33,694 nt of DNA from a virus: the IMG/VR virus record IMGVR_UViG_3300009183_000219, positions 1 to 33,694 of that record. One strand, written 5' to 3'. The position numbers and the translations under genes were made by a program. The notes below the pieces were generated by a model. That model saw nothing but the letters and a program-made list of their open reading frames with translations. It made no database searches and was not told the DNA's origin. Positions 9,156 to 33,694 of the stretch are shown piece by piece; position 1 is the first letter of the stretch, and each line of letters opens with the position of its first letter.

Positions 9156-10157
9156 ATGGCAAGCATAGTAAGTGCAGGAACGACAAGCGCAACGGCGCTG
9201 AACATGAGCGCAGACACCTCTGGTGTTTTGCAACTAGCGTCTAACAACGGCACGGTAGCGGTTACTGTAGATACAAGCCAGAACGTAGGGGTAGGGACGA
9301 GTTCGCCGGGGGCAAAGCTGGATGTAAACGGAACAATACGTTCAAAAACATCTACTGGTGGAATTATTAATATGGATAGTACCGCCGCCGGTACTACAAA
9401 TACGCTTGGTAGCTATGCAAACGCTGGGGCCGCTTTTGCTGATTTTAATTTATCCGCAAACAACACAATATTTTTGCAAGCTGGTACAGAGCGCGCCCGT
9501 ATTGACTCCAGTGGTAACTTTGGGATAGCAGTTACACCTTCGGGTTATTATGTTCTTGAAGTTGCCAGTGCAGGCGGCACTGCCGCAAAAAACGGTTCAA
9601 GCATTTGTACCGTAGCAATGGGGCGTTCTGGCGGTGACTATCCTTGGGTTGGGTACAACTTTAGGGCTACAACCACAAGCGGTTCTTATACATATAACGC
9701 TAATGACTACGCTAGTGCTTTAAATTTTTATCAAGGTGGCATTAGGACACAAACAGCAGTTTCTGGCTCTGCTGGTAATGCTATTACTTGGGTTTCTGGC
9801 CCATCTATATCACAAGGTTCGGCAAATTGGGCTGCTGGCGCATCTGATGTTCGTCAAAAGAAAAACTTTGAGCCATCTCAAGGTCTTGCAGAAGTATTGC
9901 AAATTGAACCCGTTAAATTCCACTTTAACTGGGAAGATGATAACAGCCCTAAAAAACTTGGGTTTAAAGCGCAAAATTTATTGCCACTAATTCCCGAAAT
10001 GGTGATCGAGAAAGATGAAAAAGCTGAAGACGGGACGCCTTATTTAACAATTACTCCAGACTTTATGTTGCCTGTACTTGTTAAAGCAATCCAAGAGCAG
10101 CAAGCCCTAATCACTCAACTACAAGCTGACGTAGCAGCATTGAAAGGCGCAGCATGA
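9156..10157 (+). CDS. tail fibre with C-terminal S74 intramolecular chaperone
   Basis: A 333-residue tail fibre. The N-terminus (SAGTTSATALNMSADTSGVL, then a GVGTSSPGAKLDVNG block) is an attachment and stalk module; the middle is beta-rich and receptor-facing. From about residue 225 the Peptidase S74 (endosialidase-type intramolecular chaperone) domain begins with GASDVRQKKNFEPSQGL. Ser230 and Lys235 have the spacing of the Ser-Lys dyad of that family, which cuts the chaperone off after trimerisation. The end, AIQEQQALITQLQADVAAL, is the usual short coiled coil. The mature fibre should therefore end near residue 229. AAGGAT precedes the ATG. Confidence 0.88.
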   Translation: MASIVSAGTTSATALNMSADTSGVLQLASNNGTVAVTVDTSQNVGVGTSSPGAKLDVNGTIRSKTSTGGIINMDSTAAGTTNTLGSYANAGAAFADFNLSANNTIFLQAGTERARIDSSGNFGIAVTPSGYYVLEVASAGGTAAKNGSSICTVAMGRSGGDYPWVGYNFRATTTSGSYTYNANDYASALNFYQGGIRTQTAVSGSAGNAITWVSGPSISQGSANWAAGASDVRQKKNFEPSQGLAEVLQIEPVKFHFNWEDDNSPKKLGFKAQNLLPLIPEMVIEKDEKAEDGTPYLTITPDFMLPVLVKAIQEQQALITQLQADVAALKGAA

Positions 10158-11281
10158 CATCAACAATCAACGCTTCAAGCACAGGCAGCGGCGGCATAGT
10201 CCAGACGGCAGACGCTTCGGGCGTGTTGGCGCTTCAAGCAAACGGTACAACCGCATTCACGGTCAACTCAGACGCAACGACTACCTTTGCCAACGCAGCA
10301 AACCTACCCAACACCTTTGGCTTTAAGAACCGCATCATCAATGGTGGCATGGTCATTGACCAGCGTAATGCTGGGGCTAGTGTTACTCAAGACACTAGTG
10401 GAACGCAGTATTGTTTAGACCGCTGGAATATTTACGGCACTGTAGCAAGTAAATTTACTGTTCAACAAACACCAAGTGCAACAGAAACTGGGTACGCAAC
10501 TCGTGTAGCGGCTGGGTTTACAAATTATTTAGCTATTACTTCAGCTTCCGCCTATTCTGTTTCTGCCAGTGATGTTTTTCAATTGCAGCAAATGATTGAA
10601 GGTTTTAATACTTCTGATCTTGCATGGGGAACGGCTAGCGCTAAAACGGTTACGCTTTCATTTTTAGTATATTCATCTTTAACGGGCACTTTTGGAGGCT
10701 CGCTTGTTAATAGCGCCGCCAATTATTCTTATCCTTTTACATACTCAATTCCAGTAGCAAACACTTGGACTTCCATTTCTGTAACTGTTGCAGGCCCCAC
10801 CGCAGGGACATGGATTGGTGCAACAAACGGAATTGGTATAAGGGTTTATTTTGGTCTTGGCGTTGGGTCAACAAATAGCGGAACTGCCGGGTCTTGGTCT
10901 GCAAATTTATATCGTTCAGCCACAGGCGCAGTCTCAGTAGTAGGCACAAGCGGCGCTACTTTCTACATCACAGGCGTACAGCTAGAGAAAGGCTCCACTG
11001 CAACGAGCTTTGACTACCGTCCTTATGCCACAGAATTTATATATTGCCAACGGTATTATGAGGTAGGTGAATCAACTTTTTATGGCCCAGCTGGGACTAA
11101 TTATTTTCCCATACCTTTTGCAGTTTATAAAGCAATTAGTCCTACTGTAACAAGGACAGGGGTTGGCAGTATTACCGGGGCTACTGCTGGTACAACAGTG
11201 TCTACGGTAGCCCAATATAGGTTTTATTTTACCAATAACACAGTTGTTGGCGGTAGCTGGGCAGCATTAGCGGAGCTTTAA
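10154..11281 (+). CDS. tail fibre / receptor-binding protein
   Basis: This 375-residue protein starts with a module related to the previous fibre ([20 protein letters not shown] compared with SADTSGVLQLASNNGTVAV). It continues with [20 protein letters not shown], typical of phage fibres, and has a carbohydrate-binding-module-like beta domain ending [25 protein letters not shown] and a [10 protein letters not shown] block. No S74 domain is present. The start is fixed by an ATGA overlap. The tip (residues about 300-375) may contact the host. Two fibres sharing an attachment module could occupy equivalent sites or be alternative receptor binders. Confidence 0.83.
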
Positions 11282-11283
11282 TT

Positions 11284-11460
11284 ATGTATCAACTCATTAA
11301 ACCCCCTCCAATTGGTGGCGAGGTCACTTGCGTTAGCCGTATTGCTGATGGAGCTTGCATTCCTTTTGACATTCTCAACCCAGATTACAGGGCTTACTTA
11401 GCTTGGCTTGCTGAAGGCAATACCCCTGAACCTGCTGACGAACCCGGTGCTCCCGCGTAA
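11284..11460 (+). CDS. 58-residue tail-fibre accessory protein
   Basis: This small gene follows the fibre stop by two bases and encodes [40 protein letters not shown], then [18 protein letters not shown]. The [21 protein letters not shown] block is frequent at the ends of phage fibre or fibre-assembly proteins in my recollection. Its acidic, Pro-rich tail and position right after a fibre suggest a fibre chaperone or cap. No strong Shine-Dalgarno is seen, so translation is probably by re-initiation. Function is inferred from context. Confidence 0.7.
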
Positions 11461-11490
11461 AATAAGCCATCCCTATCGTAAGGAATCCCC

Positions 11491-12285
11491 ATGACCGTAA
11501 ATTACACAACCAACCTGTCCCTTGGATTACCGGTTACCGGCACGGAGTCTGGTACTTGGGGTGATGACGTTAACAACTCCATCACGTCGTACTTGGACAT
11601 CGCCATTGCAGGCACGCTGTCGCTTACCTCGGCGTCCTTTACAGCCAATGCGCTTACCCTTGCCAACACGTTTGGTACAAGCTCTGCTACCAACATTGCA
11701 GCAACTACCGCGCAGTATTACGCCATCAAAGTAAGCAGCTTGGCGGCTAACGTAACTATCACAGCGCCCAGTCTAAGCAAAGGGTACGTCGTTGCTAATC
11801 TTGACTCTACCTACTCGGCAACCATTAAGGCATCTGGGCAAACAGGGGTTACGGTTATACCGGGCGAAAAAGCTGTTGTTTTTTACAATGGCACGGACTA
11901 CATCAAACTGTCCTCTACCATCCTAAGCAACTTCACGGTTGACGGAACGACTACCCCCGGATACCTAAGCATCCCCCAAAATGCCCAAACCGGAAGCTAC
12001 ACATTAGTTTTAGCTGATGCAGGCAAGCACATTTACCACGCATCCGGCGCAGGTGTTGCAACTTACACAATCCCAGCTAACGCTTCGGTAGCGTACCCAA
12101 TTGGTACGGCAGTATCTATTGTTAACATGTCCACTAATGCAGTGACAATATCCATCACTTCTGATACCCTTACATGGGCGCAAGGTGGTGGCACTGGAAG
12201 CAGAACATTGGCGCAGTATGGTGTAGCTAACTGCTTGAAGATTACTGCTACACAATGGATATTGACTGGAATTAACGTAACATGA
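11491..12285 (+). CDS. tail fibre protein (TTNLSLGLPVTGTESGTWGDDVN family)
   Basis: A 264-residue fibre protein whose N-terminus (TTNLSLGLPVTGTESGTWGD, then DVNNSITSYLDIAIAG) is a well-known phage tail-fibre attachment module. The rest is Thr/Ser/Ala-rich beta structure, including GYLSIPQNAQTGSYTLVLAD and a C-terminal jelly-roll-like segment (TIPANASVAYPIGTAVSIV). AAGGAA lies just before the ATG. The ATGA overlap with the glycine-rich adhesin that follows suggests that this protein carries or assembles with that adhesin at a fibre tip. Confidence 0.82.
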   Translation: MTVNYTTNLSLGLPVTGTESGTWGDDVNNSITSYLDIAIAGTLSLTSASFTANALTLANTFGTSSATNIAATTAQYYAIKVSSLAANVTITAPSLSKGYVVANLDSTYSATIKASGQTGVTVIPGEKAVVFYNGTDYIKLSSTILSNFTVDGTTTPGYLSIPQNAQTGSYTLVLADAGKHIYHASGAGVATYTIPANASVAYPIGTAVSIVNMSTNAVTISITSDTLTWAQGGGTGSRTLAQYGVANCLKITATQWILTGINVT

Positions 12286-13370
12286 GCGGCATCCTTAACG
12301 CATTTGTTGCAGGGGCTAGGGCTTTTGTGCCTTATGCACCCACTATTGGCACGGCTACAGTAACGGGGTATACAACTGCCTCGGTTACCTACACTGCTTC
12401 AACAAATACGGGCGGTTCACCTATTACTTCATATACGGCTGTATCTTCGCCCGGTGGTATTACAGGCACATTAGCAACATCCGGTTCCGGCACAATTAAT
12501 ATTTCTGGTTTGTCCCAAGGTACGGCTTATACCTTCACAGTATATGCAACTAATGCTGTTGGAAATAGCGCATCAAGTGCGGCTACCCGTGCAATAGCTT
12601 CTGTAGTTATTAGCTCAACTGTTACAAATTACACTGCGAATACCGCAAAAGTATCCGGGTATGTTACGGGGCTTACTGATGTTACGTTTACCGTTAACGC
12701 TGCAATAACCAGTCCTTCTACTGGGTCATACGCATTTACAGTAGATACGTCTTGGGCAGCGGGCGATACTGTGGCTGTTGTTAATAATAGTTATATTTTA
12801 GGTATGGGCGGCGCGGCAGGTGGCGGAGCCGGATATTATTATCCTTATGACGCAGTTGCTGGCGCTTCTGGGGGCCCTGCTATTTATGTTGGTCGCACCA
12901 TAACTTTTACAAATAATGGTATTGTTGGTAGCGGCGGTAGCGGTGGCGGCGGCGGCGGTTCTTGTTATATATATGGTTATAGTAAAAATACTATAGTTAT
13001 GGGTGCCGGAGGTGGCGGCGGCGGTAGGTCATCATCAAATTCTTACCCTAGTGCTGGCGGTGCTGGCGGTAGTGGTTGGACTGGTTCTAACCCGGGCAAT
13101 AACGGTCAGCCCGGTAGTGGGGGGACTTTCTCTGCCGCTGGTTTGGGCGCGGCTGGCTCATTGTTTAGCCCAACTTATTATGCCGGTGCTGGGGGCAATG
13201 GTGGTAGTTGGGGCAGCGCAGGGGTAACTGGAGATAATGGGACGCCAAGTGATAAGGGTTTTACCGTCTACGGCGCAGCGGGGGGAGCAGCACAATATTC
13301 TTTAATAGGTAAAGCCAACGTCAATAGTGGCGCTGGTATTAGTGGAACAGTTTATGGAGCACAAGGATGA
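12282..13370 (+). CDS. FN3 plus glycine-rich receptor-binding adhesin
   Basis: This 362-residue protein has three parts. Residues about 18-108 are a fibronectin type III domain (SVTYTASTNTGGSPITSYTA, SQGTAYTFTVYATNAVGNSA). Residues about 110-165 are a second beta domain. From about residue 168 the chain is extremely glycine-rich (GMGGAAGGGAGYYYPY, GSGGSGGGGGG, GAGGGGGGRS, GGAGGSGWTGSNPG). Runs of Gly separated by aromatic/Ser loops recall the polyglycine-II sandwich of the phage S16 gp38-type tip adhesin. In that family the loops bind host outer-membrane proteins. Location among fibres supports a receptor-binding role. Fold similarity is inference. Confidence 0.78.
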   Translation: MSGILNAFVAGARAFVPYAPTIGTATVTGYTTASVTYTASTNTGGSPITSYTAVSSPGGITGTLATSGSGTINISGLSQGTAYTFTVYATNAVGNSASSAATRAIASVVISSTVTNYTANTAKVSGYVTGLTDVTFTVNAAITSPSTGSYAFTVDTSWAAGDTVAVVNNSYILGMGGAAGGGAGYYYPYDAVAGASGGPAIYVGRTITFTNNGIVGSGGSGGGGGGSCYIYGYSKNTIVMGAGGGGGGRSSSNSYPSAGGAGGSGWTGSNPGNNGQPGSGGTFSAAGLGAAGSLFSPTYYAGAGGNGGSWGSAGVTGDNGTPSDKGFTVYGAAGGAAQYSLIGKANVNSGAGISGTVYGAQG

Positions 13371-23439: not shown

Positions 23440-26400
23440 ATGGCAAAAACTGATTGGGAAGTTGTTTCTGAAGCCCCTGCTGCTAAAACTGCAAATAGTG
23501 GTTGGGAAGTTGTTTCTGAAGCCCCTGCTGTACCAACTAAATGGTCAGGAGCAACCTTATCCGAAAAAGATTTACTAGAACTTGAAGCTAACGCCAATAA
23601 AGGGGATGTCCAAATCCAAGACATCCTACGTGCGTACAAGGAAGCCAACCCTACCGGCAAACGCATAACCCAAGCCGAGTTTGCTCCTTCTGCAAAAGCC
23701 CCGGCCCCAGTACAGAAACAAGCTCAGGCGCAACCTGCGGCTACTTCTATGTTAGATAGCGTTGGCAATGTAATGAATACTGTACGGGACTGGGCAACTG
23801 GAGTTCCTATAAATGCTGCGGATGCGGGTAGGTCAGTATTAGGAAGTGGAGCACCGTCACCTGTATCTTCAGAGCAAAACTTAGTTAACACAGGCGCTGT
23901 AAACCCACAATATGTAGCTGCCTTAGAAGCAAAACTTAACTCAATGCCTGCGGCGCAAAGAGGGGTTGCGCTACAACAAGCTATTGCATCAGCGCCTGAA
24001 AACTCAGCCCAAGGACGCGCATTAGCGTTAATTGCTACAAAGTATGCGTCACTAAACAAAGTAACAAGCCCTACGCTGCGTAAGTTAGACCCTCGGCTTG
24101 AAGCGCAAAAAGACCGACTCATTGAGCAAGGGTTAAACCCCGATATTGCTGAAAGTCTAGCTAAACAAAGCGCCGAAGTTGGTGCAATACGTCCTAATGA
24201 AGGGCAAGTAAAAGAATCTCCAGACGAATATGTTAAAGCAGAATCTTATCGCGTACAAGGTAATCTTACCGGCATAGCAAAAACTGGAGAAACGCTAACA
24301 CGAGGGGCGCTAAAAGCTGGGCTTTCCTATGAAAGAGGCGTGCGAGGTGTTAATTTGTTTGTGGGCGACATGCTTGGTTTTGATACGTCTACAAACAAAG
24401 CACGGTTAAATTCTATTGACCAATTTGTTCAAGGAATGGGTGAGCAAAGTTCTAAGCCCCTTAACCTGTTTGAAAGTGCTATTACTTCTATAGGCCAACA
24501 AGCCCCTACGCTTATTGGCGGGGCTTTAACGGGTTCAACACCTGCGGTGCTAAGTGCTATGTTTGCACAATCGTTTGGTCAAACCTACGATGAAGGTGCG
24601 CGTAAAGGACTTGATACTGTTAATAACGCGGCTCGTTCAGCTATGTACGCAGCATTAGAGGTGTTAGGAGAAATGCCGGGTCTTGGTGCCAATATTAAAG
24701 GGCTTAAAGCCGCAGCAAACGGCATGCCTTTAGACCAGATTGCTGGATTTTTTGCTAGAGCTTTAAAGAAAGATGCACCGGGAGAGTTGGTTACTTACGC
24801 TGGACAGTTTGCTGTAGACAAAGGTTACGGCATGAACCCAGAAGCTGGTATTGCCGACTTTATTTCAGGCGCGGCTGATACTGTACTTTCTACTGTTCTT
24901 CAAGCTGGAATAATGACTGGTAGTGGAATAGCAGTGGGTAAAGGGGTAAACAAACTTCGAGCCGTACAAGACAAAATTAAAAGCGGGCAGCGTCAAGCGT
25001 ATAAACAAGACACAAGCTACGAAGGGCTAGCCAGTCTTATTGCGCAGTCTAAAGGGTTTGACTTTAGAGAAAAACATGCGCTGGGTGACCAAGGGTATAA
25101 AGTTGGTGAGTTTTTACGAGCCGAGCGTGAAGGCCCAGCACTGGGCGAAGCTAAAGTTGATACGGGTGCTGAAGGCCCAACACTAGGTGAAGGTCAAATT
25201 AGTACTACTGGTACGCGAGTAGAACCTACGTTAGAAGGCGGTGCAGCTACAACTGCGGCTGCTCCTGTTGGCCCCACACCTGAGGAAATTGAAAAGACCG
25301 CTGCGGGGTTTATGGCTGCTGGAGTTCCAAGAGCCCTTGCGTTAAAGATGGCAGAAAAGCAGTTAGTTGAACAAACAACAAAGACTACCGCAGCAGCACC
25401 TATATCACAAGACTTTTCTAAATTAGCTGCGTGGCCTGATGTTCTGTTAGCGGAAACACTTAAGCTACAGCAAAGTAAGCCTGAGCCCAATCAACCTCTG
25501 GTCGATGCAATTCAAGTTGAAATACAACGCCGAGCGCAAACCCAAGGAGCCCCAAATGCTACAGGAACTGAGTCCGCACCAAGTGGAGGAAGCGCTGGCG
25601 TGGCTGGCGAATCCGTTGCCGGTCAACCCACCGGAGGATTTGAAACACCTACACGAAATGGAGTGGTTTCTTCTGAGCCGAATGCTGGAGTCACTACTAC
25701 AGGAGAAATTTCACAGCCCCCTACAGTAACCACAGGAGCCCCCACAAGTGTCATTACGCCCACTAAAACCAAGCAAACAGAAACGCAAGGACAACCAGCG
25801 CCCGTTACCAAAGTAAAGCACTCAATTGCGCAAAACGATGAAGGTAAGTGGGATTATTTGGTAGACGGTGAAGTAGTTGGAACCTACGATACCAAGCGTC
25901 AGGCTAATACCAAGGCCATACTTGAGCGTTCTATAGTTAAGGGCGATACGGATGTAATTGCTAAAAACCAGCAAGCGCACGATGCTGCAATGACAACAGC
26001 ACGGGGACGCCCGTTAAAGTTATTCCCAAAAGCTAAAGTTGATGTTGGTGAGACTGTTACTGAAGATACTGATACTGGAACTACTGATACTGAAACTACT
26101 GAGACGGCAGAGGGGGAACCTGCTGTTGGTGAGACTGCTAAACCCGAAGCACCAATTGTGCTGCAAGAAGCAAAGACGGTTAGGGGTGATGCGCTTACAG
26201 GGCCATCTACAAAAGTTAAGCTGTCCGATGGTAGTGAGCATGAAATTAACCGACTAGACTCTACTACCAGTATGGGGCTACCGGGGTGGCACGATGTAAA
26301 TGCCGATACGCAAAACAGCTATTTAGCGGACACCAAAGCTGAAGCTATTAAGGAACTAATCCGTCGACAGGAAGAAAAGCGCACGGCTGCTGCTAAAGCT

Positions 26401-29400
26401 CCAACCAAAGAAACCAAAGGTAAGAAAGCCCCGTCTGCTGCCGACGCGCTTGCTGTTGAAACTCAAGAAAAGCTCCAAGAGCTTGAAGACCTGCTTGGGA
26501 ACTACAACACCAACCCAGATGTTGCCGCTGCAAAAGCTTCGGCGCGAAATATCAACCGTATAGCTAATGACCCTGCGCAGCCTAAAGCAGTCAGGGAACG
26601 CGCCAAAAAAATACTGGTGGATGAGATTGATACTAAAGACCTTGTTGAGGGTTCAAGGTATCTTTCTTCTAAGTTTACGCAAAGCCCAGCCGACAAAGCT
26701 TTTGGTAAATTTACAACCGCGTCGCAAGCTATATCGCACATCCTAAGAACTGGTACAAAGTTTCAAAAAACTTTAGCAGCACGCCTACGTGGTTTTGTGC
26801 AGGGCGTTAATTTTGTAGTAGTGGAACAGGGCCAAGCACTGCCTGAAGGTTTGGCTAAGAAGAGCGCAGAGTGGAGCCGCTCCATTGCTATGTATGACAG
26901 AGCAAGCCGTACTATCTATGTGCGCGGTGAGTCATACGGCAATAAACAAGGCATTAACCACGTTACCGTACTGCACGAACTACTGCACGCAGCTACTGCT
27001 AGGAAAATAGACCTAGCTATGAAGGCTATCAAAGACGGGGTTAGTTTGGACTCCCCGTTGGTTCAAGCTGCCCTTACCTTACACCGCACAATGGAGAACG
27101 CCGACACTGCCCTCAGGGAGTTGGCGCGTCAAGGGAAGTTAACTGAAGACTTAGCCACCCTAGCTGTGCATGGTAAAGCCTTTAGCGATACGCATGAGTT
27201 CTTGGCCTACGGCATGACCGACAAGACCATGCAGGATTTCCTGCTTAAGACTAAAGGTGTTGAGGGTGATACGCACCTATTTAATCGGTTTGTTGATAGC
27301 ATGCGCCGTATGTTCGGCATGGGCAAAGACTCGATTAATGCGTTGTCTGACCTAATCTTGGCAACCGACCAACTCTTAAGCGCCCGTGAAATTGGCGGCA
27401 GCATCAAGGAAACTGGGACTCATGCGGCTACTAGTGAAACCAGAGTACAGCCCTCAGCAGACGTTGGGCGCTTAGCCAAGATGCTCGGGTCTAAGCTATA
27501 CGGCACTCCTGACAATATAGCTGCGGTATCCATAAAGGAACTGTTCCAGAATTCTTTTGACGCTATTAAGGGCGCAATAGAAAAGGGTACGCTAAAGTCA
27601 GGCGACATCAAAATAAAAATTGATTCTAGTACTCGCTCTATACAGATAATTGATAACGGCCTTGGCATGCCAACCAGCGTAATGGGTGGTCAATTTTTAA
27701 CCATTGCTGGAACAGTCAAAGAAACTAAACGTGCATCGGGTGGACTTGGCGTTGCCAAAATGTTGTTCCTATTTGAGAACAAAGAGCTAGAGGTAGTGTC
27801 ACTGCGTGATGGTGTTGTATCCCGCATGGTTACTACTGGGGATGACTTAAAAGCTGCATTAACTGACCCCAAGCGAGGACCTATGATCCAGACTACATCC
27901 GATGCAGATGTAGTAGCACGTTACACCAAAGAACTTTTTCCTGACGGGCATGGTACATCCGTACGTGTTCAAGTCCCAGAAACGTATATTAATGAGTCTA
28001 ATGGAGAAGAGTTAAAAATTCCTTTTAGTTCATATGAACTAGAAAGAGCCCCAGTATTACTTGATAGCCCTTTATTTGACAACATAAAAGTTTCTATTGA
28101 TACCGGATACGGCTTAGATACGTTGCCTATTGGTGCTAATTTCCCAGTTGATAAATTTACTCCGTTTGCTAATGTTAAATTTGCTTGGGGTACTGCGCGT
28201 ATATACGTTGGTAAGGATAAACTTTCTTTCGTTGGAAGTACTCGTGGAAATGCACACATACTATCTAATGGCTTATGGCAGTTTAATCTTGTATTAAAGG
28301 ATAAACCGGGTTTTGATGGTGAAGCCATTAAACGTGATTTTTATATAGACGTTACCCCCAATGAAAATGTAAAGCCTGAGGATGCCGGATATCCATTTGA
28401 CTTAAACCGCCAAAACTTTTCTAAAGTAGCTGATAAAGACTTTAAAAAAATATTTAATTACGTAACGGCTATTTACAGCCAACTTGATTTAGCCTCCAGC
28501 GTTAAAAACTTTGGCACAGCACAATACGTTAACAGCAATGGTACGTTGACTAAGGCCGAAACACTGGAACCAAAAGTACCTATATCCGATAACGCATTTA
28601 CGGTTATTAAACCCGACGATAAAGTAGAAGTGCGCGAAGGCGTGCTATACGTTAATAACCGAGCATTACCTGAATTAACCGAAGAAGACTTAAAGAAGAC
28701 TGGTATACGTCTTGAAGAGTTAACCATCCCTCAAGATGAGGTTGATCCTAACAAGGTAATGATCCACGACAATACAGTACTTAAATCTTCTAAATTACCA
28801 AAAGGGGAATTAATACCTATAGCCGAACTTGATGCTTTAGTTGATAAAAATCCGGGTAAATATAAATTAGAACTGTTGCCCGAACCTGATGTCAGGTTTA
28901 CGGTTGTCAATGACGACGGGTCTGTAATGGTGTTTGAAGACACAGCAGAAGAAATTTTTGCTGATCTACAAGGGCTTGGGTTTATACCTAAAGAAACGGA
29001 AAACAAAGAAAAGTCGTTATCTGATGCAGCGCGGGAAAAGTTTGGCGATAAAGCTTATAACAAATATATTTCCGTTATCGGTGAAACGTTCCACAAACTA
29101 CGTGATGCGCTAGTAAACGTAAATAGCGATTATGCTGGCCTTAGCACACAAGTTATTGGCGTTAGCTTAGATAAAAAATACTACGGCGTTAGTATTATGA
29201 TCCCGTTCAAGGGGATGTTTATTAACCCCGCGACTACGGAGTTACAGGGCACCCCTGCACAAATTGCAGTGTCTTTAATAGGCACAATGACCCATGAGCT
29301 TGCGCATTTTAAGCAAAGAAATCATGGTGCTAGCTTTGCAACTGAAATGCAAAAAGTAGTTACGTTACTTGACACCCACCCATCTTTTAGCTTACAACAG

Positions 29401-32400
29401 GTTAAGGCAGACTTAACCTTACACATTGCCGACAACATTGAAATATTTAATTATTTAAACAAGGAGTTCCAAGATGAAAATCTCGACGCTCGTGGAAACC
29501 GCTTCCAAGACGCTAGCTTCGAACAAATCGGAGATGAAGGCTCTGTTGAGCCAATGGAAAGCACTAGCGGAACAGGAAAAGGGCAACCCAGCGTACCCCA
29601 AGGCGCTGGGCAAAGCACTACAGGTGCTGGACAAGTCGGCGTCCCCAAAGGAGTTGGTGGAAAAACTCCGCGAACTGGAAAAGAATTAGACACAGACGTA
29701 TCCAAAGCTGTTAAAAAAGTTGCAGAGTCTAGGAAAGGCGTTGCGCTAGGTGATGCTCTAGCTGATCTATCTAAATGGCGTGACCCCCGTTATCTGTGGG
29801 GGGAAATTAATGGTGTATGGGACTCGCTTAGCGACTCGGCTAGAACTTTTGTTTCCCATTTCTACGATAGCGAAGCCCTTGCTTATGCTGGGCCGGGGGA
29901 CATCATTACTGGGCTAAAAGACGCGCATGAAGCAATTCAAAAAATGTCAGGCTCGGTGCAAACATATTTGCGTGGTGTAGCCAACGTAGCTGATGAAATT
30001 GTTGACTTCTACCGGGCTGAACCTAAAAAACGCCAAGCCTTTGAAGACCTTGTGCATGCGTCTACGCTTGCTAAATACGACCCAGCCAACCCAAATAACG
30101 TTCTGCGGAACAATGAATTAGACAATGATTACGCAGCATTAGGCGATAAAGGGCAAAAAGCTTACAAGCGCTTACGGGACTACTACAAGAGCATGAATGC
30201 TGTTAAGCAGCACTTGCTGGAGGAAAACCTTAGCAATCTAAAACTGTCTGCCGCTGCCCGTAAAAAACTATTGTCAGACGTTAGGGTGCTGTTTGAAGCC
30301 GACAAGGTAGAGCCTTACTTCCCATTAGCCCGCTTTGGGGATTTTGTCTTAGAGACAGGGAAAAAGGGTTCACACGCCACTTACAGGTTTGATACAAAAA
30401 AAGAACGTGACCGTGCAGCTAGAGAATTTGCAAGGCAGCAAGGTAAAAGTGTGGATGACCTTAGGAAAGATGGAGAGCTACGCATAACCGAAGATTTAAA
30501 CGGTGACGGCTTGCGGATTAATATTGAAGGGACTAGCAAGCTACTAAAGGCCGCATACGCTGCGGTAGATTCGGCTAGCGTAACCGACCCTAATATTAAG
30601 CAAAAGCTTAAAGATGACTTATACCAAGCGTACTTGGCGGCTATGCCAGAGAACAGTGTGCGCAAAATGTTTGTGCATCGCAAAGGCACACCGGGGTTTA
30701 GCTCCGATGTTCTTAGGGCAGTCAATGACTCTGGTTCACGAATGGCTCGGGCGTTTGCCAAACTTGAGCATGCCAATGCTATACGTCAAGCCATAGACTT
30801 ATCAAAACGGCAGCTTGAGGGCAATGAAAAATATACCGCGTTTTTTATGCGGATGAACGAAATTGCATCAGAAGCATTACAACCTAGGATTCCAACAGGC
30901 AAAGAAAAATGGCTAGACAACGTTGCAAATGTTATTGTTAAAGCGTCTTTCCTGCGCAACCTGACAAGCTGGTCTTCTGCAATTATGCAGCCAATGGATA
31001 TTTTGCTAAAAGGCGCTCCGGTATTGACGGGTAATCATGGGCCTAAAGCAATGGCTGAGCTATCTAAGATGATGAAGCTGCATAATCAATACGGGGTTTT
31101 GGAAAAAATGCCTAATGGCACTATGCGCTTCCGTGCTCCTAGTATTGAGTTTGCCAAAGGGCTTACCCCCCAAGAACGTTTAGCAGTTCGTGACATGGTA
31201 GATGTGTACGGTGTAACCAGAGACACACTAGCAAATGAAGTGTTCAGCCAAGCTAGGGAACCGGCTACTAAAATAAACAGTAAAGCATTTGAGTTAGGTA
31301 AAGACGCAGTACATAATTTAATACTCGGCGGGCTTATGCACCACGGGGAGCGGTTATCACGTGAGATTATTGCGCTTACTTCTTTCCGTCTAAACATGGC
31401 TGAGTTACAAAAAGCCAACCCCAATGACCCAACAAATTACGATGAAGCAGTAAAGGCAGCAATACGGGAAACAAATGAAGTACTAGGTAACTACAACGCT
31501 AACAATAAGCCTATGCTAATGCGTGGGGCTGGTGGGCGGCTTGTAACCATGTACAAGTTTTTCCCGCTTGTTACTACCAAACTATTGGTGACTAACTTCT
31601 CCAAAATGCTTCCTATGTTTAACAAGGAAGGTAAGGCAGCAGCAGCTACTAAGTTCTTTGGCGTATTAGGTACGCATACATTATTCGGTGGCCTTGTGGC
31701 ATTGCCTGCGTTTAGCTTAGTGATGGGGCTACTGCAAGCTGCTTGGGAAAAATGGCAAAAAGACCCCGATGCTCCCGATGAGATGCGGGACATTGACTAT
31801 GAAACTTGGTGGCGTACTGTGTGGTTGCCTGAAAACTTAGGCAGCACAGGGTTAGCTCAGTTAGCAGAATACGGTTTACTAAATAAGTTAACTGGGTTTG
31901 ATATATCCAGCCGTATATCCTTGAACGATATGTGGTTCCGTGATCCGCAGCCGGGTAAAAATGCAAAAGAAACAGCCTTAAACTGGGGGCAAGTAATGTT
32001 TGGCGCTGCTTGGACTACTGGGCTAAATGCGATTCAAGGTATTGACCTTATGACCCAAGGCGAGTACGAACGTGGGCTGGAAAAACTAACCCCTGCTTCT
32101 ATAAGCAAATTAATGGTAGCCCATAGGTACGCAACTGAAGGTGTGCAAACACCCCAAGGCGTGCAGTTAATAGAGAAGGGTAAAGTACCAAAGAGCGAGC
32201 TTGTCGGTCAAGCTATTGGCTATGCTCCAGCACGAGTAGCAGAAGCCCAAACTACGGCGTTTAAAGCGCAAGCTGCTGAAAAAGTCATTGTGCATGAACG
32301 GGAAACAATTATGGGTACGTTGAAAAACTCATTCCGTAAGTCCATCGACCCTAACAAAGATACTGAAATACATGAACGCTTTGACAAAATATTCCAAGAC

Positions 32401-32604
32401 ACCTTGGACAAGGCCACAGACTTTAGCCTACGTAACCCTGAACGCGAAATTAAAGGTGAGGAAATTACCAAGGCTCTAAACGATGAGTTGAAGAGGGTAG
32501 TTGAAACTGAAATGGGTAGCGGTATTAAGATGACTAAAGAAAACGCTAGGTTACTTTCACCTTCAATAGAAAAAGCAGAAAGAGCTTTGGCTCCCTACAA
32601 ATAA
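23440..32604 (+). CDS. 3054-residue polyvalent protein: two zincins plus GHKL ATPase
   Basis: Visible domains in order: a tandem N-terminal WEVVSEAPA motif (residues 5-30); helical virion-type region; low-complexity linker (about 560-790); small beta/alpha domain with KWDYLVDGEVVGTYDTK (about 800); zincin 1 with HELLH 1179-1183 and THEFLAYG (E1253 a possible third ligand); GHKL ATPase with N-box ELFQNSFDAI (E1367, N1371, D1374), DNGLGM 1405-1410 and GGLGVAK from 1434; zincin 2 with HELAH 1952-1956 and H1962 in NHGASF; linker (about 2010-2085); and a long helical C-terminus with a hydrophobic stretch near 2740-2775. It starts one base after the previous stop without a Shine-Dalgarno, so translation is likely coupled. 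Probable ejected internal protein acting in the host; activities are predicted, not shown. Confidence 0.88.
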   Translation: MAKTDWEVVSEAPAAKTANSGWEVVSEAPAVPTKWSGATLSEKDLLELEANANKGDVQIQDILRAYKEANPTGKRITQAEFAPSAKAPAPVQKQAQAQPAATSMLDSVGNVMNTVRDWATGVPINAADAGRSVLGSGAPSPVSSEQNLVNTGAVNPQYVAALEAKLNSMPAAQRGVALQQAIASAPENSAQGRALALIATKYASLNKVTSPTLRKLDPRLEAQKDRLIEQGLNPDIAESLAKQSAEVGAIRPNEGQVKESPDEYVKAESYRVQGNLTGIAKTGETLTRGALKAGLSYERGVRGVNLFVGDMLGFDTSTNKARLNSIDQFVQGMGEQSSKPLNLFESAITSIGQQAPTLIGGALTGSTPAVLSAMFAQSFGQTYDEGARKGLDTVNNAARSAMYAALEVLGEMPGLGANIKGLKAAANGMPLDQIAGFFARALKKDAPGELVTYAGQFAVDKGYGMNPEAGIADFISGAADTVLSTVLQAGIMTGSGIAVGKGVNKLRAVQDKIKSGQRQAYKQDTSYEGLASLIAQSKGFDFREKHALGDQGYKVGEFLRAEREGPALGEAKVDTGAEGPTLGEGQISTTGTRVEPTLEGGAATTAAAPVGPTPEEIEKTAAGFMAAGVPRALALKMAEKQLVEQTTKTTAAAPISQDFSKLAAWPDVLLAETLKLQQSKPEPNQPLVDAIQVEIQRRAQTQGAPNATGTESAPSGGSAGVAGESVAGQPTGGFETPTRNGVVSSEPNAGVTTTGEISQPPTVTTGAPTSVITPTKTKQTETQGQPAPVTKVKHSIAQNDEGKWDYLVDGEVVGTYDTKRQANTKAILERSIVKGDTDVIAKNQQAHDAAMTTARGRPLKLFPKAKVDVGETVTEDTDTGTTDTETTETAEGEPAVGETAKPEAPIVLQEAKTVRGDALTGPSTKVKLSDGSEHEINRLDSTTSMGLPGWHDVNADTQNSYLADTKAEAIKELIRRQEEKRTAAAKAPTKETKGKKAPSAADALAVETQEKLQELEDLLGNYNTNPDVAAAKASARNINRIANDPAQPKAVRERAKKILVDEIDTKDLVEGSRYLSSKFTQSPADKAFGKFTTASQAISHILRTGTKFQKTLAARLRGFVQGVNFVVVEQGQALPEGLAKKSAEWSRSIAMYDRASRTIYVRGESYGNKQGINHVTVLHELLHAATARKIDLAMKAIKDGVSLDSPLVQAALTLHRTMENADTALRELARQGKLTEDLATLAVHGKAFSDTHEFLAYGMTDKTMQDFLLKTKGVEGDTHLFNRFVDSMRRMFGMGKDSINALSDLILATDQLLSAREIGGSIKETGTHAATSETRVQPSADVGRLAKMLGSKLYGTPDNIAAVSIKELFQNSFDAIKGAIEKGTLKSGDIKIKIDSSTRSIQIIDNGLGMPTSVMGGQFLTIAGTVKETKRASGGLGVAKMLFLFENKELEVVSLRDGVVSRMVTTGDDLKAALTDPKRGPMIQTTSDADVVARYTKELFPDGHGTSVRVQVPETYINESNGEELKIPFSSYELERAPVLLDSPLFDNIKVSIDTGYGLDTLPIGANFPVDKFTPFANVKFAWGTARIYVGKDKLSFVGSTRGNAHILSNGLWQFNLVLKDKPGFDGEAIKRDFYIDVTPNENVKPEDAGYPFDLNRQNFSKVADKDFKKIFNYVTAIYSQLDLASSVKNFGTAQYVNSNGTLTKAETLEPKVPISDNAFTVIKPDDKVEVREGVLYVNNRALPELTEEDLKKTGIRLEELTIPQDEVDPNKVMIHDNTVLKSSKLPKGELIPIAELDALVDKNPGKYKLELLPEPDVRFTVVNDDGSVMVFEDTAEEIFADLQGLGFIPKETENKEKSLSDAAREKFGDKAYNKYISVIGETFHKLRDALVNVNSDYAGLSTQVIGVSLDKKYYGVSIMIPFKGMFINPATTELQGTPAQIAVSLIGTMTHELAHFKQRNHGASFATEMQKVVTLLDTHPSFSLQQVKADLTLHIADNIEIFNYLNKEFQDENLDARGNRFQDASFEQIGDEGSVEPMESTSGTGKGQPSVPQGAGQSTTGAGQVGVPKGVGGKTPRTGKELDTDVSKAVKKVAESRKGVALGDALADLSKWRDPRYLWGEINGVWDSLSDSARTFVSHFYDSEALAYAGPGDIITGLKDAHEAIQKMSGSVQTYLRGVANVADEIVDFYRAEPKKRQAFEDLVHASTLAKYDPANPNNVLRNNELDNDYAALGDKGQKAYKRLRDYYKSMNAVKQHLLEENLSNLKLSAAARKKLLSDVRVLFEADKVEPYFPLARFGDFVLETGKKGSHATYRFDTKKERDRAAREFARQQGKSVDDLRKDGELRITEDLNGDGLRINIEGTSKLLKAAYAAVDSASVTDPNIKQKLKDDLYQAYLAAMPENSVRKMFVHRKGTPGFSSDVLRAVNDSGSRMARAFAKLEHANAIRQAIDLSKRQLEGNEKYTAFFMRMNEIASEALQPRIPTGKEKWLDNVANVIVKASFLRNLTSWSSAIMQPMDILLKGAPVLTGNHGPKAMAELSKMMKLHNQYGVLEKMPNGTMRFRAPSIEFAKGLTPQERLAVRDMVDVYGVTRDTLANEVFSQAREPATKINSKAFELGKDAVHNLILGGLMHHGERLSREIIALTSFRLNMAELQKANPNDPTNYDEAVKAAIRETNEVLGNYNANNKPMLMRGAGGRLVTMYKFFPLVTTKLLVTNFSKMLPMFNKEGKAAAATKFFGVLGTHTLFGGLVALPAFSLVMGLLQAAWEKWQKDPDAPDEMRDIDYETWWRTVWLPENLGSTGLAQLAEYGLLNKLTGFDISSRISLNDMWFRDPQPGKNAKETALNWGQVMFGAAWTTGLNAIQGIDLMTQGEYERGLEKLTPASISKLMVAHRYATEGVQTPQGVQLIEKGKVPKSELVGQAIGYAPARVAEAQTTAFKAQAAEKVIVHERETIMGTLKNSFRKSIDPNKDTEIHERFDKIFQDTLDKATDFSLRNPEREIKGEEITKALNDELKRVVETEMGSGIKMTKENARLLSPSIEKAERALAPYK
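23454..23530 (+). repeat. 29-bp direct repeat, 48-bp period, encoding WEVVSEAPA twice
   Basis: A 29-base sequence at 23454-23482 (TTGGGAAGTTGTTTCTGAAG...) recurs without mismatch at 23502-23530, giving two copies of WEVVSEAPA 16 residues apart. Exact nucleotide identity means a recent duplication or ongoing slippage-type exchange. It lies at the extreme N-terminus of the giant protein, where it may act as a packaging or docking signal. Confidence 0.9.
25556..25729 (+). CDS. nested 57-residue gene in +1 frame of giant gene
   Basis: This ORF lies wholly inside the 3054-codon gene, one base out of frame. It starts at ATG 25556 with AAGGAG at 25544-25549, six bases upstream. The product, MLQELSPHQVEEALAWLANP then LPVNPPEDLKHLHEMEWFLL and SRMLESLLQEKFHSPLQ, is a well-composed helical protein, and codons such as CTG, GAG, GCG and CCG dominate. 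In contrast the giant gene's own frame here is a Gly/Ser/Thr/Pro linker. The ALAWLxNPxP..P..LKHL..xEW..L..LL..LLxEKxxSPL pattern resembles small phage proteins I remember, which I could not verify. Function unknown. Confidence 0.65.
   Translation: MLQELSPHQVEEALAWLANPLPVNPPEDLKHLHEMEWFLLSRMLESLLQEKFHSPLQ
29474..29689 (+). CDS. nested 71-residue gene in +1 frame of giant gene
   Basis: A second ORF within the giant gene, again in the +1 frame. AAGGAG at 29461-29466 is seven bases before ATG 29474. The product (MKISTLVETASKTLASNKSE, MKALLSQWKALAEQEKGNPA, YPKALGKALQVLDKSASPKE, LVEKLRELEKN) is a basic helical protein with a plausible two- or three-helix bundle. Third codon positions are rich in G/C. 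The overlapping giant-gene frame encodes a Gly/Gln/Thr/Ser/Pro linker (SGTGKGQPSVPQGAGQST) with the look of an out-of-frame reading. No family recognised. It ends at TAG 29687-29689. Confidence 0.65.
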   Translation: MKISTLVETASKTLASNKSEMKALLSQWKALAEQEKGNPAYPKALGKALQVLDKSASPKELVEKLRELEKN

Positions 32605-32683: not shown

Positions 32684-32878
32684 TCAAACCCGCCAGACTC
32701 GCAAGCCTTTGATACCGTCTACTATCTCTACCTTGGATATGGTGTCTATCTTTAGGCGTTTTGTAACAGTAGCCACCTCTGCCCGTGCAGCTTTGTGGTC
32801 AATGCAGGGTACAAAAAACGAATGGCCTTTGCGAAACTTAGACCAGTCAATCCTGTACGTCACCGTCTCTATTTTCAT
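32684..32878 (-). CDS. small conserved protein of replication operon
   Basis: A 64-residue basic protein on the minus strand: YRIDWSKFRKGHSFFVPCID, HKAARAEVATVTKRLKIDTI and VEIVDGIKGLRVWRV. I recall the pattern W.KF..G.SFFVPC...GI.GLRVWRV from small proteins of phage replication modules. Its start lies 32 bases inside the end of the upstream DUF927-type gene, so translation is probably coupled; no strong Shine-Dalgarno is seen. The beta-alpha-beta-like layout and basic charge are compatible with nucleic-acid or protein binding. It is the last gene before the leftward terminator. Confidence 0.75.
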   Translation of the reverse strand: MKIETVTYRIDWSKFRKGHSFFVPCIDHKAARAEVATVTKRLKIDTISKVEIVDGIKGLRVWRV

Positions 32879-33694
32879 TGGTGCCCAATATAGCTTCTAC
32901 TTGCAGGAACTCGTTATTGGAGGCGTCAAACTTCAGTACACGAACGGCGGGCGATACAACCTTCATACCCTTGGACATACGCTTATTGGTAGCCTCAACA
33001 AAAACTTGCAAGTCGGTGAGCTTCTTAAGTAACTCTTTGTAACCAATCTGCTGCTTGACGCAGAAGTCTTTGAACTGCTTAGCTGCAATGTACAGGTGCT
33101 TGGTATCGGGCTCGTAGCGTATCAATAGCTCATTGCGGGGTTCCAGTGAAGGCATAGAAATCAAGTTGCTTCGGGCATCTACTTCACCGTTAACCACCAG
33201 TGTGTTGAAGATGTGGGAATTAATAAACTCACCCAGTGCGGCTACGGGCGTGGAGTTTGGTGGCTTTACGTCATTACGCATCTCAGACAGCATGCCCTTG
33301 AGCCAGCTATACACCTTTGCCATATCGTAGTTGTGCAACTCTAAGCTCTTGGCGATAAGACCACCGGCAATGTTGCATGCAGCTACGGCTGACCAAAACC
33401 GCTCACGGGCTGTGAACTGTATTTCCTTGTCAATGCGGGCCTGAATCTTCTTAACTAGGGCTTTGGCCTCTTCAAGGTTGTTCACTAGCCAAGTGATATA
33501 GATTTCCCCCGCATGTCCGTAGTTCTCGTTAAGCTGGTGGTCAAACATCTCTTTACCATGCGCTACGCCGATTAGGTCGTTGGGCTCTATCTTGTACTCC
33601 AGTAACCGTACTGATTCACCATCCGGTGTATTCTTTGCTGTACCCAGCTTTTCGTAAAAGCTACAGTTAGCTGAGCATAGGGTCATGTTTTTCC
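32847..33694 (-). CDS. DUF927-type replication protein, C-terminal part
   Basis: The minus-strand frame is open to the right edge; the Met at 33686 is probably internal, because TLCSANCSFYEKLGTAKNTP corresponds to the interior of DUF927 proteins as I know them. Further blocks are GESVRLLEYKIEPNDLIGVA, LNENYGHAGEIYITWLVNN, FTARERFWSAVAACNIAGGL and IAKSLELHNYD. DUF927 proteins act in plasmid and phage replication, usually fused to or next to primase-helicase parts. About 282 residues are visible, so the N-terminal ATPase part lies outside the window. The C-terminal 110 residues (LGEFINSHIFNTLVVNG and following) are an extra domain. Replication role is inferred from family knowledge. Confidence 0.75.
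   Translation of the reverse strand, partial: KNMTLCSANCSFYEKLGTAKNTPDGESVRLLEYKIEPNDLIGVAHGKEMFDHQLNENYGHAGEIYITWLVNNLEEAKALVKKIQARIDKEIQFTARERFWSAVAACNIAGGLIAKSLELHNYDMAKVYSWLKGMLSEMRNDVKPPNSTPVAALGEFINSHIFNTLVVNGEVDARSNLISMPSLEPRNELLIRYEPDTKHLYIAAKQFKDFCVKQQIGYKELLKKLTDLQVFVEATNKRMSKGMKVVSPAVRVLKFDASNNEFLQVEAILGTNENRDGDVQD

Follow-up and report, generated by a model that had tools for sequence, protein, structure and literature searches.

Nested out-of-frame genes are already known in tailed phages, for example Rz1 in Rz. In the sections of PMC6139136 that describe the Rz/Rz1 spanins, one phage gene lies entirely inside the gene of its functional partner, in the +1 frame. Bacillus subtilis offers a further case, since comS lies within the very large gene srfAB and is read in a different frame to give a small protein; however, ComS is a competence protein, and the passages of PMC12915044 used here describe no link to an enzyme module. 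The polyvalent proteins encoded by phages and by conjugative elements (PMC5512222, main text) are giant and multidomain, combining zincin metallopeptidases with an LPD domain, and that main text contains no mention of GHKL, HSP90 or overlapping. RIIA is described in the relevant part of PMC7824862 as a GHKL domain followed by a variable C-terminus.

The locus described here resembles each of these systems in part. It encodes a polyvalent-type giant protein with putative zincin metallopeptidase regions, an LPD domain and a DarB-like C-terminal part, but it also contains a GHKL-zincin module with a nested gene. Two small ORFs, N1 and N2, lie wholly within the giant gene in its +1 frame. Rz1 is a small lipoprotein encoded in a small gene, whereas N1 and N2 lie in a giant multidomain gene, and neither contains a cysteine, so both are without a lipobox and the o-spanin lipoprotein signal is absent. 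RIIA and the phrog_6203 phage GHKL proteins resemble the GHKL ATPase part of the giant, but the similarity is confined to about 70–200 aa. Two RIIA proteins that we translated contained no HExxH, and assignment to the RIIA family was rejected because the alignment covers the GHKL part only. No published report of nested genes of the N1/N2 type was found in the literature searched, a statement that holds for that search alone.

Results

Organization of the giant gene and its two nested ORFs

The window, that is, the whole stretch of DNA analyzed, is an IMG/VR record of 33,694 bases with genes of head, tail-fibre and ejection type. N1 profile scans, from which the best 80 of 376, the best 80 of 213 and the best 80 of 167 relatives were taken, gave together with earlier loci 169 unique N1 contexts. 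The features of the locus are as follows.

23440–32604, plus strand: giant ORF, 3054 aa, ATG start; multidomain polyvalent-type protein
23677–25509, plus strand: N-terminal region (NT), residues 80–690; own HMM built from the data
25544–25549, plus strand: Shine-Dalgarno sequence of N1, AAGGAG; a Shine-Dalgarno-like 4-mer is present in 159 of the 169 contexts
25556–25729, plus strand: predicted nested gene N1, 57 aa, +1 frame of the giant
26437–27414, plus strand: zincin-1 region, residues 1000–1325
27442–28719, plus strand: predicted GHKL ATPase domain, residues 1335–1760
28837–29475, plus strand: predicted zincin-2 domain, with HELAH at about 29296–29310
29461–29466, plus strand: Shine-Dalgarno sequence of N2, AAGGAG, preceding the ATG at 29474
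29474–29689, plus strand: predicted nested gene N2, 71 aa, +1 frame of the giant
29707–32601, plus strand: C-terminal part (CT), residues 2090–3054; LPD39, DarB-like; a gene of its own in split relatives

The giant thus reads, in order, N-terminal region, zincin-1 region, GHKL ATPase, zincin-2 with HELAH, and C-terminal part. The 480 aa upstream of N1 form a single-linkage group common to all 116 hosts tested. For the GHKL domain, the window sequence scores below the Pfam cut-offs of HATPase_c and HATPase_c_3 (22.4 versus 26.4 bits and 23 versus 25 bits), and the match lies above the cut-off in five relatives; the motifs of the domain are conserved in the alignment. The HExxH of zincin-2 is invariant across the alignment, and its YgjP-like and WLM Pfam matches are both below the cut-off. 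LPD39 is detected at 33 bits against a Pfam cut-off of 27, and the DarB-like PHROG match spans the C-terminal third of the giant. The gene preceding the giant matches a DNA ejection protein PHROG (1.3e-07).

Several further observations were made on the same record and its relatives. Internal virion proteins from phiKMV-like Pseudomonas phages, which carry an endolysin-domain annotation, match the zincin-1 region (best E about 1e-13). Giants of three relatives (L020, L028 and L030) have about 180–225 additional residues compared with the window, located between zincin-1 and GHKL. At 9156–13370, adjacent genes match differing tail-fibre and tail PHROGs and perhaps form a receptor-binding cluster. 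A convergent gene on the minus strand near the window end (32847–33686) has a weak primase/helicase PHROG match and occurs in relatives in a form of roughly 950–995 aa.

The ATG of the giant lies one base past the stop codon of the preceding gene (TAAcATG), and no Shine-Dalgarno sequence is visible there. The earlier note had set this against the consensus Shine-Dalgarno sequences of both nested ORFs. Both of the latter are confirmed as AAGGAG ahead of the ATGs at 25556 and 29474, with the start six or seven bases past the motif. The missing site of the giant is a feature of the window and not a general one, since relatives often have a Shine-Dalgarno sequence ahead of the giant. For N1, the open frame is listed from 25505, and the supported start is the ATG at 25556; a Shine-Dalgarno sequence with ATG or GTG is found at this consensus start in 149 of the 169 contexts.

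Conservation of the nested reading frames

A scan with the zincin-1/GHKL/zincin-2 region gave 34 related loci, of which 32 carry N1 and 32 carry N2. The two loci without N1 (L002 and L034) begin downstream of its place, and the two without N2 (L033 and L034) are missing the GHKL-zincin module too. Wherever N1 or N2 was found among the relatives examined, the nested frame was +1 of the giant.

We compared amino-acid identity in the two frames after dropping seven near-duplicate loci and pairs with at least 95% nested identity, which kept 344 of 351 pairs for N1 and 321 of 325 for N2. The mean identity was 0.504 in the nested frame versus 0.343 in the giant frame for N1 (nested higher in 336 of the 344 pairs) and 0.628 versus 0.461 for N2 (317 of the 321), counts that are not independent because the sequences are related. 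Because the alignment of these pairs followed the nested frame, the comparison is biased toward that frame, and a screen of all clusters of alternative-frame ORFs was used as the control. This screen covered 119 giants (119 of the 169 contexts, after clustering at 85% and leaving out L289) and gave 80 clusters present in at least three loci; the difference was negative in 76 and positive in four, with N1 and N2 leading, followed by a low-complexity cluster and N3. When 174 hosts were screened in a second round, the only large groups with a better-conserved nested frame were again N1 and the N2/N3 family.

The nucleotide data agree with this pattern. Substitutions are commonest at nested codon position 3, which is position 1 of the giant, and rarest at nested position 2. 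Nucleotide identity peaks over N1 and N2, is lower beside both and falls behind N2. Bulky hydrophobic residues make up 0.156 and 0.149 of the giant frame across the two overlaps, compared with about 0.28 in whole giants. The proposal that the linkers are out-of-frame readings of well-formed small genes is supported, the giant frame being less conserved and disorder-rich there.

Codon resampling was carried out in both directions. With the nested residues fixed, the giant frame stays open with a median probability of 0.045 (N1) and 0.003 (N2), and with the giant residues fixed, the nested frame stays open with 0.203 (N1) and 0.075 (N2); these values cannot be multiplied as independent trials because the sequences are related. 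Both frames appear to be maintained. Judged from the sequences, selection acts on the product of each nested gene and at the same time preserves an open giant frame across it, and N1 and N2 are almost certainly real coding genes.

Other nested candidates were evaluated in the same giants. A lysine-rich low-complexity cluster was rejected as a gene candidate, as was a nested ORF common to L304 and L312, in which the giant frame is more conserved (0.57 versus 0.38). A possible third nested family, also in the +1 frame, occurs at host codons of about 790–1201 in five hosts without detected N1 (L303, L311, L316, L319 and L323); the nested frame has the higher identity in the four pairs with L303 (0.36 versus 0.23 with L319), and the other six pairs are mixed.

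Predicted products of N1 and N2

The AF2 model of N2 has four helices and is confident (pLDDT 90.7, pTM 0.74), and that of N1 has two helices at moderate confidence (pLDDT 78, pTM 0.55). Fold searches gave nothing significant for N1. For N2, the best Foldseek E was 1.9, and the best Z of 5.7 is in the range common to helical arrangements; comparison with the secretion chaperone folds of FliS and a type III gatekeeper gave E above 1 and Z of 3.1–5.5. The window N1 and N2 proteins had no significant match in Pfam, PHROG or NCBIfam (best E 0.0059).

Carriers of N1 or N2 in the collections searched were IMG/VR contigs only. Two different N1 queries had no match in the isolate-phage collection, N1 had no match in the genome-contig collection, and N2 had one match among isolate phages at E 8, which is the chance level. 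The small proteins behind GHKL-zincin differ greatly in sequence among loci. A direct profile comparison of N2 with N3 shows only faint similarity (hhalign probability 4%, E 0.0094), although intermediates bring both into one BLAST cluster.

N1 lies fully inside a same-phase long ORF in 168 of the 169 contexts of the best-80 scan sets, and the exception ends at a contig edge. The complete N1-bearing giants (n = 141) range from 1752 to 3270 aa, and many N1 hosts are without any other window domain at the thresholds used. Four giants (L304, L311, L333 and L360) have the NT region and no N1, so N1 is not indispensable to that region.

N2 accompanies the GHKL-zincin module

Among the 119 non-redundant N1 giants, GHKL, zincin-2 and a nested N2/N3 occur jointly in 24 and are jointly missing from 95, and no giant has only some of them, the N3 model for this count having been built from three of those loci. 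We also scanned with the GHKL-zincin enzyme sequence only. Taking the best 80 of 124 relatives gave 79 loci, 55 of them non-redundant, with identity down to about 27%. A further scan (best 80 of 116 relatives) gave 30 loci not within 85% of the first 79, some of which are contigs met before (L432, L436, L456 and L457).

A strict test required a +1 ORF of 55 codons or more, preceded by a Shine-Dalgarno sequence, to start 40–70 codons past the HExxH. It was passed by 50 of 55 loci in the first set (best 80 of 124; control elsewhere in the ORFs 4.5%, +2 frame 0 of 55) and by 28 of 30 in the second (best 80 of 116; control 4.8%, +2 frame 0 of 30), that is, by 78 of 85 in both best-80 sets, with a control rate of about 5% and none in the +2 frame. 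Four loci that missed the strict test (L312, L339, L340 and L342) have the nested ORF with ribosome sites outside the pattern, and in a fifth (L364) the ORF starts 83 codons away. A loose test was passed by 30 of 30 loci in the second set, with a control rate of 22%, and the ORF of L437 looks like a chance occurrence. On inspection, the nested ORF is present in 84 of the 85 loci of the best-80 sets, and one is doubtful. The distance from HExxH to the nested start in the 55 loci (best 80 of 124) is mostly 53–60 codons. A scan with N2 alone gave 40 loci, all within giant-type long ORFs and nested behind the cassette (nine new contigs were checked).

Comparison of individual giants shows mosaic relationships. 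The window and L003, L005 and L020 are 70–72% identical in GHKL and 68–70% in N2 versus 32–33% in CT. Beyond the near copy L001, the nearest relatives of the window CT are L033 (77%), L081 (65%), L158 (50%) and L106 (45%), all without GHKL and N2. L033 and L034 lack the segment spanning roughly residues 1330–2083, and homology restarts at about the N2 stop codon. From these comparisons, N2 very probably moves with the GHKL-zincin cassette and is gained or lost with it as a block. The association is no proof of interaction, because physical linkage alone would make the two travel together.

The GHKL-zincin combination was also searched for in other collections. No isolate phage had the window type or the L342 type, and the matches of the L349 and L344 types were restricted to the generic GHKL part, mostly in RIIA proteins. 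In the genome-contig collection, the matches listed, at least eight, were all weak, short GHKL matches. Phage Matisse has a gene for a 78-aa protein next to rIIA; this gene was considered as a free-standing N2 and rejected, since its translation looks like a membrane protein.

Split genomes place a joint behind N2

Continuous giants are the rule among relatives. In five of the 85 loci of the best-80 sets, the GHKL-zincin ORF ends 28–50 codons past the nested stop and a separate large gene follows; these are L346, L348, L349 and L361 among the 55 non-redundant loci and L444 among the 30 further ones. Two loci outside the 55, L350 and L363, are also split. In the first four, the ORF ends 28–38 codons past the nested stop and the next gene is about 960 aa, the copy in L361 ending at the contig edge. 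This downstream gene resembles the C-terminal part of the window giant in L348 (E 5e-10) and L361 (E 1e-8), and those of L346 and L349 had no match to it at the threshold. The existence of such split genomes marks the giant as a mosaic whose parts meet behind N2. On the tree, the four split rows form one clade and represent one change; the root is not fixed, so fusion and fission are not polarised.

L425 and L439, both fused, are relatives of L444 (61–64% identical over about 710–750 module residues), so that split and fused states occur within one close group, a suitable set for following changes at the joint. The gene downstream of the L444 host ORF, which ends at 10109, has no BLAST match to the fused part of L425 or L439.

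In the split genomes too, the tail of the upstream gene contains a nested N2-type ORF. Swallowing at the moment of fusion is thus not seen, as the small ORF is in the upstream tail even when the genes are split. No free-standing N1 or N2 between genes was found in the 169 N1 contexts and the 85 GHKL-zincin loci of the best-80 sets; as neither small gene is intergenic in any of these relatives, the overlap is old. These results bear on the fusion history that the earlier note had proposed. A joint exists behind N2, as seen in the split loci and in the block absent from L033 and L034, but the order of events is not polarised. In the split loci, the domains flanking N2 are indeed separate genes, but the N2-type gene sits in the upstream tail instead of between them, and the claim that intergenic small genes were swallowed found no genome with N1 or N2 in that position.

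Discussion

Origin of the overlap and alternative explanations

Two histories of the overlap were weighed. In the first, the small genes were once intergenic, the upstream gene lost its stop codon and was read through out of frame, and it then fused onward, leaving the linker as a by-product. Consistent with this are the split genomes, in which the joint directly follows the nested ORF, and a giant-frame linker low in hydrophobics; a comparable pathway is proposed for Rz/Rz1 in the relevant part of PMC6139136. Codon usage also favors it for N1: in 88 of 119 giants, the usage of the N1 frame is nearer than that of the linker frame to the giant's own, which suggests that the N1 frame is the older of the two. 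The N2-type frame, however, is nearer in 30 of 55, with no lean either way, and the absence of a free-standing copy from the contexts given above and a tree that does not polarise the events also count against it. We consider this history rather unlikely.

In the second, the nested ORFs were born de novo by overprinting in the linkers of a continuous giant and became essential later. They are always nested and always +1 in the best-80 sets, and no free-standing homologue was found in the phage or genome-contig collections, as this history would predict. Against it, the nested frame is the more conserved one and the codon usage of N1 is the more native. The codon usage is not decisive, because, according to the relevant part of PMC8227390, de novo genes can come to match native usage as they age. 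A de novo origin is, in our judgment, doubtful to about the same degree.

Another possibility, that these stretches persist chiefly because their DNA serves as anchors in homologous domain exchange, with coding being secondary, is quite improbable. The identity islands and the mosaic breakpoints at N1 and N2 fit such anchors, as does the pair of the window and L033, in which N1 is 98% identical but NT only 38%; yet substitutions track the nested codon positions, and the sequences are far diverged between clades. Programmed frameshifting into +1, giving the giant an alternative C-terminus and no separate protein, would explain the constant +1 phase, but it is highly improbable given the conserved Shine-Dalgarno sequence with ATG or GTG and a +1 frame that, in L339, L340 and L342, is open merely one to four codons before the start. 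That the ORFs are non-genes, open through composition or giant-frame conservation, has next to no likelihood: recurrent alternative-frame ORFs of that kind are common (the 76 of 80 clusters above), but N1 and N2 are the opposite case in identity, in both screens and in the nucleotide profile.

A proposed role for the nested genes

The reading we prefer is that N2 encodes a partner of the module behind which it lies. Ribosomes initiating inside the message of the giant would read each nested gene. N2, a small protein with four predicted helices, would be made where the giant-frame ribosome completes the zincin domain, and its anatomy suggests a co-translated cognate partner of the GHKL-zincin module, either a chaperone or an inhibitor. 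It may hold GHKL-zincin in a folded but inactive state inside the producing cell, up to the point at which the giant is delivered along with the DNA. N2 keeps its position right behind the zincin, is present or absent together with GHKL-zincin and has survived great divergence, all of which is more easily explained by a cognate partner than by an unrelated passenger. A partner function of N2, which we derive from sequence comparison, is nevertheless a tentative assignment. N1 might provide a similar service for the N-terminal half of the giant.

An overlap located in the linker at the module end would make the module and its partner one inheritable block during domain shuffling, and the overlap itself may be kept because the partner is welded to the module in this way. 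The whole chain, from nested genes to N2 as a co-inherited module partner welded by the overlap, is put forward with similar reserve. Overlap-nested module pairs persist across great divergence, on contigs whose lengths run from about 10 kb to more than 100 kb. It is conceivable, and we put it more cautiously still, that the giant proteins delivered by phages are built of modules carrying their own out-of-frame partner gene in the end linker.

What is new here is that one nested gene tracks one enzyme module through hosts with differing other domains, and that another nested gene occurs in giants of widely different make-up. These genes add small proteins missed by gene finders, beside enzymes of unassigned role. 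The idea that an overlap binds a protein to its partner in modular evolution is made testable by them. If the proposal is true, the overlap would keep enzyme and keeper inseparable while the domains around them are shuffled.
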